Below are positions 33,038-45,456 of a DNA stretch of 64,000 bases, piece after piece. Location: contig NZ_JACHXK010000003.1 in the NCBI RefSeq assembly GCF_014192105.1, positions 372,001-436,000 on the forward strand, written 5' to 3'. The position numbers and the translations under genes were made by a program. Position 1 is the first letter of the stretch, and every line of letters starts with the position of its first letter. The stretch comes from Paenibacillus phyllosphaerae (lineage in GTDB: Bacteria > Bacillota > Bacilli > Paenibacillales > Paenibacillaceae). The notes under the pieces are model-generated. The model saw nothing but the letters and a program-made list of their open reading frames with translations, was not told the origin of the DNA and searched no databases.

Positions 33038-33628
33038 ATGGCTCAGCGGATAGCCACGGAGTATGTCAAAGCTTCTCTGCAATTAACGGCTGAAGAGATG
33101 ACGGGATTTGTCCGGTTTTTTGAAGAGCAACATGTGAGACAGCAAGTGCGCGTGCTCGATAACGGCAATCACGAGATGGTTCTCGAAGACGACGCAGGGC
33201 GGGAAGAAGTCCGCTTAACTTTTGAGCGTCAGCAGGATCTATATGTATGCATCATGTCCTGTCGCTTGGTACATCCCAAATTGACGAATGCGATGCGTAA
33301 AGCCGTCGCTAAATTCCATGGGGATGCAATTGTTAACCGCATTTATCCAGCTTATACGATGACCTATCATTATGTGCAAGGCGCTGTACGCAAGATCGTC
33401 GAGCAATCCAAAGGCGAAAGCCGCACGGTATTCGAATTCAAGGACACCGTCGGCCAGCTGGAGAAACAGTTCCGGATCAACGACGTTGAACAGACGATTC
33501 AATTGCTGCACAATGCGGTCAATGAGTTGCTGGATCTTCGGAATCAATGCTCGGATGCGGCGCAGATCGCGCTTATTGATGAGAAACTTAAGCAGACAAC
33601 GCACCAACTCTTTGTCCTTGAAGCATAA
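33038..33628 (+). CDS. Conserved-looking cytoplasmic protein of unknown function
   Basis: 196-residue soluble protein, not recognised. The N-terminal half looks alpha/beta (IATEYVKASLQLTAEEM, HEMVLEDDAGREEVRLTFERQ) and the C-terminal half is a long helical region from about residue 135 with heptad-like leucines (FRINDVEQTIQLLHNAVNELLDLRNQ), suggesting a coiled coil. No signal peptide or enzymatic motif is visible. TTGAGGAG precedes the ATG. It is transcribed alone, with its own terminator, between engB and speD. Confidence 0.75.
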   Translation: MAQRIATEYVKASLQLTAEEMTGFVRFFEEQHVRQQVRVLDNGNHEMVLEDDAGREEVRLTFERQQDLYVCIMSCRLVHPKLTNAMRKAVAKFHGDAIVNRIYPAYTMTYHYVQGAVRKIVEQSKGESRTVFEFKDTVGQLEKQFRINDVEQTIQLLHNAVNELLDLRNQCSDAAQIALIDEKLKQTTHQLFVLEA

Positions 33629-33662
33629 CAACGACCTCACTTTTCAACTACATTCCATTCAT

Positions 33663-33692
33663 GAAACCACTGCAGATGCAGTGGTTTTTTTA
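33663..33692 (+). terminator. Terminator after the 33038 gene
   Basis: AAACCACTGCA pairs perfectly with TGCAGTGGTTT around GA and runs into a T-tract. Confidence 0.95.
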
Positions 33693-33828: not shown

Positions 33829-33867
33829 TAGATTCGTTGAAAACAATCAAGTAAATAATAGGAACCA

Positions 33868-33977
33868 GGATTCACTCAGGACATGGTAATGTTGCGAGAG
33901 ATTATTCCCTCGGGCAGTGAATGACGTAGGTCCTAGCGGATGAAATTTTTAAAACATTTTATTCCTAGGAAGGGGGA
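33868..33977 (+). promoter_or_regulatory. Structured speD leader with possible pseudoknot and anti-Shine-Dalgarno helix
   Basis: ATTCACT (33871-33877) pairs with AGTGAAT (33917-33923). Between them AGGAC (33879-33883) can pair with GTCCT (33931-33935) beyond the stem, giving an H-type pseudoknot, and CGAG/CTCG forms an inner hairpin. TCCTAG (33932-33937) is also complementary to CTAGGA (33966-33971), which abuts the speD ribosome-binding site AGGAAGGGGG. The two pairings of 33931-33937 exclude each other, as in a switch. No Rfam family is recognised from memory. Confidence 0.5.
33890..33925 (+). CDS. Possible 11-residue leader peptide upstream of speD
   Basis: The ORF MLREIIPSGSE-stop has AGGA 7 nt before its ATG at 33890; an in-frame ATG at 33884 would add two residues. 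It lies entirely inside the structured leader and ends 60 nt before speD. A ribosome at its stop would cover the sequence that can mask the speD ribosome-binding site. Its small size makes chance plausible. Confidence 0.35.
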
Positions 33978-33985
33978 ACCGAAAG

Positions 33986-34384
33986 ATGGAATACTCAACT
34001 TTCGGAAGACACGTTGCTGTAGATACTTGGGGTGTAGATTTCGAGTTACTCAACAACGCGGAGTTTTTGCAAGCCCAAATGGTGGAGGCCGCTGAAGCGT
34101 GTGGTGCTACCGTACTCTCTGTGCAAGCCAAACAATTCGAGCCACAAGGAGCGACTGTGCTCGTATTACTGTCTGAAAGCCATCTCTCCATTCACACGTA
34201 TCCTGAGAAGGGTTTTGCTGCACTCGATTGCTACACTTGCGGCGAAACAGTGGATCCGCAGTTGGCGATTGACTACATGATTTCCGTCCTTAAGCCGACC
34301 ACGACGCATGCGAAGAAATTGGTACGCGGCATGGGCGAATTGCAAGTCGTAGAACCAGAGATGAAACAAACGCAGTTTGTGTAA
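33986..34384 (+). CDS. speD: S-adenosylmethionine decarboxylase proenzyme
   Basis: Makes decarboxylated S-adenosylmethionine, the aminopropyl donor for spermidine. The 132-residue proenzyme self-cleaves before Ser68 in ESHLSIHTYPE to make the pyruvoyl group; the following His and the Cys of DCYTCG are the conserved processing and catalytic residues. This is the small bacterial class 1b form, like B. subtilis SpeD (126 residues). It begins MEYSTFGRHVAVD, and AGGAAGGGGG precedes the ATG. speE is not adjacent. It has its own promoter, structured leader and terminator. Confidence 0.97.
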   Translation: MEYSTFGRHVAVDTWGVDFELLNNAEFLQAQMVEAAEACGATVLSVQAKQFEPQGATVLVLLSESHLSIHTYPEKGFAALDCYTCGETVDPQLAIDYMISVLKPTTTHAKKLVRGMGELQVVEPEMKQTQFV

Positions 34385-45194: not shown

Positions 45195-45456
45195 GTTGAA
45201 GGGGAAGAGTGGCAGCAACACTTTCAGAGAGCGGAACCGTTTGCGCTGTGAGGTTCCGTAGGATGCTTGATGCGACGGGTCGCCCCAGAGTTGCCGTAAT
45301 GAAAGGATCGCAGGATTCTGTAAGTTACGGACGGCTGCGCAGCCGTTATCTGCATCAAGTGTCGTGTGCGGGCGTGTTTATTCGCATGCGAAACAAAGGT
45401 GGTACCGCGGAAGCTAAACCTTTCGTCCTTTGCATAAGGACGAAAGGTTTTTTTAT
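45195..45456 (+). promoter_or_regulatory. T-box leader of valS with terminator
   Basis: The diagnostic T-box sequence AAGGTGGTACCGCGG is at 45396-45410, followed by the intrinsic terminator (AAACCTTTCGTCCTT against AAGGACGAAAGGTTT, 45416-45450, then T-rich). Uncharged tRNA-Val binding would form the antiterminator. Upstream sequence contains the stem I elements including an AGAGAG-type bulge near 45226. A GTC near 45278-45280 is a candidate specifier codon for valine; I place it by position and it needs folding to confirm. Confidence 0.92.

Follow-up and report, generated by a model that had tools for sequence, protein, structure and literature searches.

The window, by which we mean the whole 64,000-nucleotide stretch of Paenibacillus phyllosphaerae DNA analysed here, carries speD, the gene for S-adenosylmethionine decarboxylase, with hemA downstream of it and a structured leader that runs up to and into its first codons (Table 1). 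Upstream of the leader lies an intrinsic terminator (33663-33688, + strand) belonging to the ORF at 33038-33628, and a weak OmrA-B match at 33640-33692 was discarded as being the terminator hairpin of that upstream gene. A scan for a consensus promoter for the leader found none. Likewise, a terminator scan of the + strand found no intrinsic terminator between leader and speD, and as nothing of this kind separates leader from gene, transcription attenuation of speD was ruled out and control is probably translational.

Table 1. Features of the speD leader and gene, in window coordinates.
Feature	Position	Strand	Basis or remark
speD, S-adenosylmethionine decarboxylase	33986..34384	+	TIGR03330 SAM_DCase_Bsu, 140 bits (cut-off 75.65)
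speD leader, Paenibacillus	33859-34005	+	
P1 5' strand UAGGAACC	33859..33866	+	partner 33929-33935 in 94/100 relatives
P2 5' strand AUUCACU	33870..33876	+	both-side changes at all 7 pairs; covariation, 39-sequence core set
P3 hairpin GACAU/AUGUU, Paenibacillus form, lineage-specific	33880..33893	+	predicted fold
P4 hairpin CGAG/CUCG, Paenibacillus form, lineage-specific	33895..33912	+	predicted fold
C-run UUCCCUC, SD-complementary, proposed pseudoknot arm	33905..33911	+	C-rich run here in 99/100 relatives
P2 3' strand AGUGAAU	33916..33922	+	same basis as P2 5' strand
Joint GACGUA, conserved, unpaired, between P2 and P1	33923..33928	+	sequence conservation
P1 3' strand GGUCCUA; UCCUA shared with P5 (switch strand)	33929..33935	+	pairs with both partners
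P5 hairpin UCCUAG-C-GGAUGAAAU ... AUUUUAUUC-CUAGGA, adjoins SD	33931..33970	+	outer pairs 99% kept, double changes
Shine-Dalgarno (SD) AAGGGGG (33970-33976), plus AA extending the C-run complement	33970..33978	+	9 nt before ATG 33986
P6 hairpin CCGAAAG (33979-33985)/CUUUCGG (33999-34005), start codon in loop	33979..34005	+	97% of cells paired

Folded as a single sequence the leader is unremarkable (z = -0.50), and its structure was therefore settled by comparison with relatives. Among 80 Paenibacillus genomes the stretch from UAGGAACC to the first speD codons is near-identical except for the inner region and two loops, and within the Paenibacillales alone P2 is nearly invariant, and the set, with 0 double changes, is too uniform for a test of most pairs; wider genomes were therefore searched. 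An earlier note on this DNA had proposed an H-type pseudoknot in which ATTCACT pairs with AGTGAAT (now the two strands of P2) and AGGAC (33878-33882) with GTCCT (33930-33934), together with a switch in which TCCTAG (33931-33936) pairs instead with CTAGGA (33965-33970) next to the speD ribosome-binding site, and all six strings are present. The first of these helices is well borne out, with double changes at 7/7 pairs among 100 wider relatives. In 39 inner-core sequences P2 and P3 together gave 70 double-changed cells, mostly in P2, compared with 22.9 after shuffling, and a covariation score of 0.296 compared with 0.115; 0/500 shuffles reached the score or the cell count, and slid controls gave 4-17 double-changed cells, with kinship among the sequences remaining in the statistics of this and the other shuffle tests on the leader helices. 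P3 differs in sequence and length among relatives, and the P4 pairs have 81-96% of cells paired in 52 leaders, with other families lacking P4. The AGGAC/GTCCT pairing was abandoned: AGGAC stands at that place in only 20/100 relatives, and 4 of its 5 pairs are broken in 2, 4, 4 and 7 of 52 Paenibacillales, with zero double changes.

The TCCTAG/CTAGGA pairing held, with 99% of cells paired and double changes, including U-A to C-G in the outer pairs, which are 99% kept. In the window this pairing extends to a hairpin of ~15 bp, P5, and on strand swapping 0/2000 permutations matched the own-strand pairing energy in either its outer or its inner part. The mutually exclusive switch drawn in the earlier note survives through the support for P1 and P5, but the partner strand given there was wrong and is now UAGGAACC, the 5' strand of P1. 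P1 (UAGGA/UCCUA) is retained in 94/100 relatives. Three sequences carry a double change from A-U to G-C, 22 have P1 as a second type, GGAUC/GAUCC, and the P1 strand swap gave 18/2000. In three leaders (L232, L238 and L240) UGGGA, UCCCG and CUGGGA replace UAGGA (P1 5'), UCCUA (the shared strand) and CUAGGA (P5 3'), respectively. This change in the shared strand, matched in both of its partners, is the best evidence that P1 and P5 would both matter and exclude each other, and because the three leaders are related the co-change is probably a single evolutionary event. Mutually exclusive P1/P5 pairings that reach the ribosome-binding site were found in Paenibacillus-like forms only. At the level of sequence comparison, these data demonstrate a conserved RNA in which P2, P1 and P5 pair and P1 excludes P5; there is strong support for a leader that is structured and has mutually exclusive pairings next to the speD ribosome-binding site, and compensatory changes are present in the relatives. 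Leaders L225, L226, L236 and L272-L278 have a short hairpin in place of P5, whose conserved loop, after GGUCCCG, resembles CUUGRGAGG, and one speD leader without the P1-P2 domain (L131, from genome G043) still has P6 and, next to the SD, a P5 hairpin re-paired as GAAAUCC/GGAUUUC.

Letters beyond the helices are conserved though unpaired, and the GACGUA joint in particular is near-invariant in 52 Paenibacillales leaders and reads GACGYA in most other P1-bearing families. Conservation of the leader also extends into the gene, with normalised codon entropy in speD codons 2-12 being 0.28 vs 0.76 elsewhere (Mann-Whitney p = 3e-5), which fits a P6 hairpin with the start codon in its loop; few double changes were seen in P6 beside its paired cells.

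Within P2, just 5' of its 3' strand, 99/100 relatives have a C-rich run reading CCCUC, CCCCC or UCUCCUC, and in those relatives the run is complementary to the downstream SD. In the window, UUCCCUC and GGGGGAA (33972-33978) make a 7-bp duplex of -9.0 kcal/mol. Strand swapping of SD and C-run gave 455/2000, which is not significant; this test lacks covariation support because the SD hardly varies (it reads AAGGAGG in L133-L136), and the pseudoknot contact is thus one that we infer. P2 and the C-run/SD pairing would together form an H-type pseudoknot hiding the SD, and of the pseudoknot first proposed the type of fold is kept but not its strands, which are likely to be CCCUC in P2 and GGGGG of the SD.

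A covariance model built on the Paenibacillales leader matched 130/399 Bacilli genomes and also family f118, from another class of Bacillota, and a model restricted to the P1-P2 domain matched 257/399 Bacilli genomes and 109/146 genera; the covariance-model E-values are rough, many of the weaker matches span the P2 core only, and two of the models (R1 and R2) contain the first speD codons, which biases them toward speD loci, while R3 is without such codons. Using a SpeD family search of 200 Bacilli genomes, we found 155 to be positive, 144 by strong match, and the RNA was present in 138 of these 144 and in 0 of the genomes in this sample without speD. In the 24 matches measured, the RNA lies 55-96 nt upstream of the SpeD family match. 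In G152, a genome whose two speD paralogues belong to different subfamilies, each paralogue is preceded by its own copy of the RNA; the home genome has a single copy, neither the full nor the P1-P2 model finding a second. The comparison places a domain that is both structured and conserved immediately before a pathway gene, with linkage exclusively to speD. Extra speD paralogues at L209, L138 and L140 have upstream regions without the leader, and the same genomes carry it before another speD.

The leaders of B. subtilis-type speD (METMGRHVISELWGC), a label assigned by protein family and sequence, combine P2 and the C-run with an inner hairpin, UUAAAGGGUUAGGACCUCnnnGGACUAACUUU, and an SD reading GGGGG, mostly without P1, P5 and P6, whereas Paenibacillus leaders have P1, P2, P5 and P6 and lack the inner hairpin AAAGGGUURGGACCUC, so that there is no one conserved pocket that all leaders share. 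Both modules are complete in 26/100 sequences of the wide alignment. A tentative reading, to which we lend limited credence, is that Bacilli, those with B. subtilis-type speD included, widely carry a polyamine-sensing class of riboswitch. Its SD-sequestering pseudoknot would bear two conserved modules that can be separated, P1/P5 as an outer switch and AAAGGGUURGGACCUC...GGACU as an inner hairpin, of which lineages may keep one or both, as if two inputs or aptamers had been joined on one platform. The inner hairpin's variable tip carries a ~50-nt insertion in L278 (G080), where the core is otherwise intact, a sign that changes at the tip may be tolerated.

With Rfam 15, neither the window leader nor the leaders of 15 relatives matched any known RNA family at the gathering threshold, and when scanned permissively the window, L297 and L183 yielded chance-level matches only, far below threshold. 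Among 5.39 million open-access papers the one mention of a speD leader found was a B. subtilis Hfq pull-down study, in which a 79-nt RNA of the speD-gapB interval is listed as 'unknown or speD leader region' (PMC3574147). This entry is a sequencing peak, given in that passage without structure, homologues or function, and is probably the same element. The conserved strings of the leader are printed in no open-access paper found, and in three papers on discovery in GC-rich intergenic regions speD is absent, potE and odc1 being the only polyamine terms. Our best reading is that the speD leader represents a new class within a known kind, leader RNAs that work like translational riboswitches, and belongs to no existing Rfam family, with an earlier description possible.

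speD is the source of the aminopropyl donor for spermidine. We give about an even chance to the leader being a cis-acting regulatory RNA of an orphan, translational riboswitch-like class that exerts feedback on polyamine synthesis, with spermidine as the preferred putative ligand. The earlier note's word 'riboswitch', and its choice of spermidine or SAM as signal, are likewise what we infer, and spermidine is preferred because the RNA is linked to a key step in making spermidine and because of the precedent of the spermidine riboswitch (PMC10853860). The common core would be the P2 hairpin with a C-run able to pair with the speD SD, and in the Paenibacillus form P2 would lie inside P1, whose 3' strand UCCUA doubles as the 5' strand of P5. 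The P1-P2 domain would be the first to fold during transcription; binding of a pathway product, with spermidine or a close polyamine the likeliest candidate, would then hold P1-P2, so that the C-run hides the SD and speD is off, while in the absence of ligand UCCUA would be captured by P5, P1 would open, the pseudoknot would be lost and speD would be translated. Prefix folding of the window leader gave P1 and P2 in prefixes of 80-110 nt, with P5 in place by 120 nt, which is the order that a co-transcriptional switch needs. The nested minimum-energy fold containing P5, however, also pairs UUCCCUC with the SD, and this makes the sign of the switch uncertain. The leader probably shuts off speD translation when polyamine is sufficient, acting through a putative ligand and the proposed pseudoknot, with the direction of response predicted likewise.

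Several riboswitch classes sense SAM through pseudoknots that hide the SD, and speD, which always follows the RNA, uses SAM; the same RNA switch could thus respond to SAM, decarboxylated SAM or MTA and not to a polyamine. We consider this less than likely, as at the inspected loci the RNA stands only before speD and never before SAM synthesis or methionine genes, and the Rfam SAM classes give no match. Repression of translation by a protein, either SpeD itself or another RNA-binding protein, which would stabilise the P1-P2/pseudoknot form, we regard as unlikely. The extreme sequence conservation is compatible with a protein site, and the B. subtilis RNA described above, from between speD and gapB, was pulled down with Hfq (PMC3574147); however, recovery with Hfq is not function, the core is common to two SpeD subfamilies, and RNA switches typically show conserved alternative pairings and deep covariation. 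It is quite improbable that the leader is a static structure which responds to no specific signal and serves only to reduce or buffer translation of speD or to protect the mRNA: P5 and P6 could by themselves throttle initiation, and polyamines and Mg2+ generally stabilise RNA folds (PMC10853860), but the conservation of GACGUA, CCAGG and AAAGGGUURGGACCUC, together with the alternative pairings, exceeds the needs of a static hairpin. Least credible of all is a ribosome-dependent leader peptide, MLREIIPSGSE, encoded by AUGUUGCGAGAG...UGA, whose translation would melt P2, since although the ORF stops at the UGA of GUGAAUGACG in 73/95 distinct Paenibacillales leaders, the frame is lost in the other 22/95, several families are without such an ORF and the AUG lies within a hairpin where its letters are held by pairing; a uORF attenuator was rejected because start codon and frame are not kept across members.

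The preferred reading, feedback by a polyamine, has its nearest parallel in the spermidine riboswitch, a SAM-I variant with a four-stem fold that acts through transcription termination (Salvail et al. 2023; PMC10853860). It is the one such riboswitch with good support, reported from 13 examples, and its authors expect further polyamine classes. Both elements stand before Gram-positive polyamine synthesis genes, where a feedback off-switch is the expected logic. However, the speD leader has a P1/P2 pseudoknot-type fold with other helices, no SAM-I match in Rfam and no intrinsic terminator, and in contrast to the 13 examples it was found in 257/399 sampled Bacilli genomes. As in the SAM-II, SAM-V and preQ1 riboswitches, a hairpin-loop strand is proposed to pair with the downstream SD and block the ribosome, but Rfam gives no match to these either, and the speD leader has an outer P1 that competes with an SD-adjacent P5. 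The odc1 motif of alpha-proteobacteria (PMC8632094) is likewise a structured polyamine-gene leader that contains a pseudoknot and sequesters the ribosome-binding site, although it occurs in other bacteria, before an ornithine decarboxylase gene, and is built around a conserved uORF of 11 residues that starts with UUG and was not found in the speD leader. As the leader is common to most speD-bearing Bacilli sampled (138/144), absent from Rfam and testable in B. subtilis, feedback control of polyamine synthesis in Gram-positive bacteria becomes directly testable.

Elsewhere in the window we also identified a T-box leader (RF00230, 45187-45433, + strand, 109.6 bits), an ordinary one, which immediately precedes an ORF that starts near 45430 and resembles valyl-tRNA synthetase.
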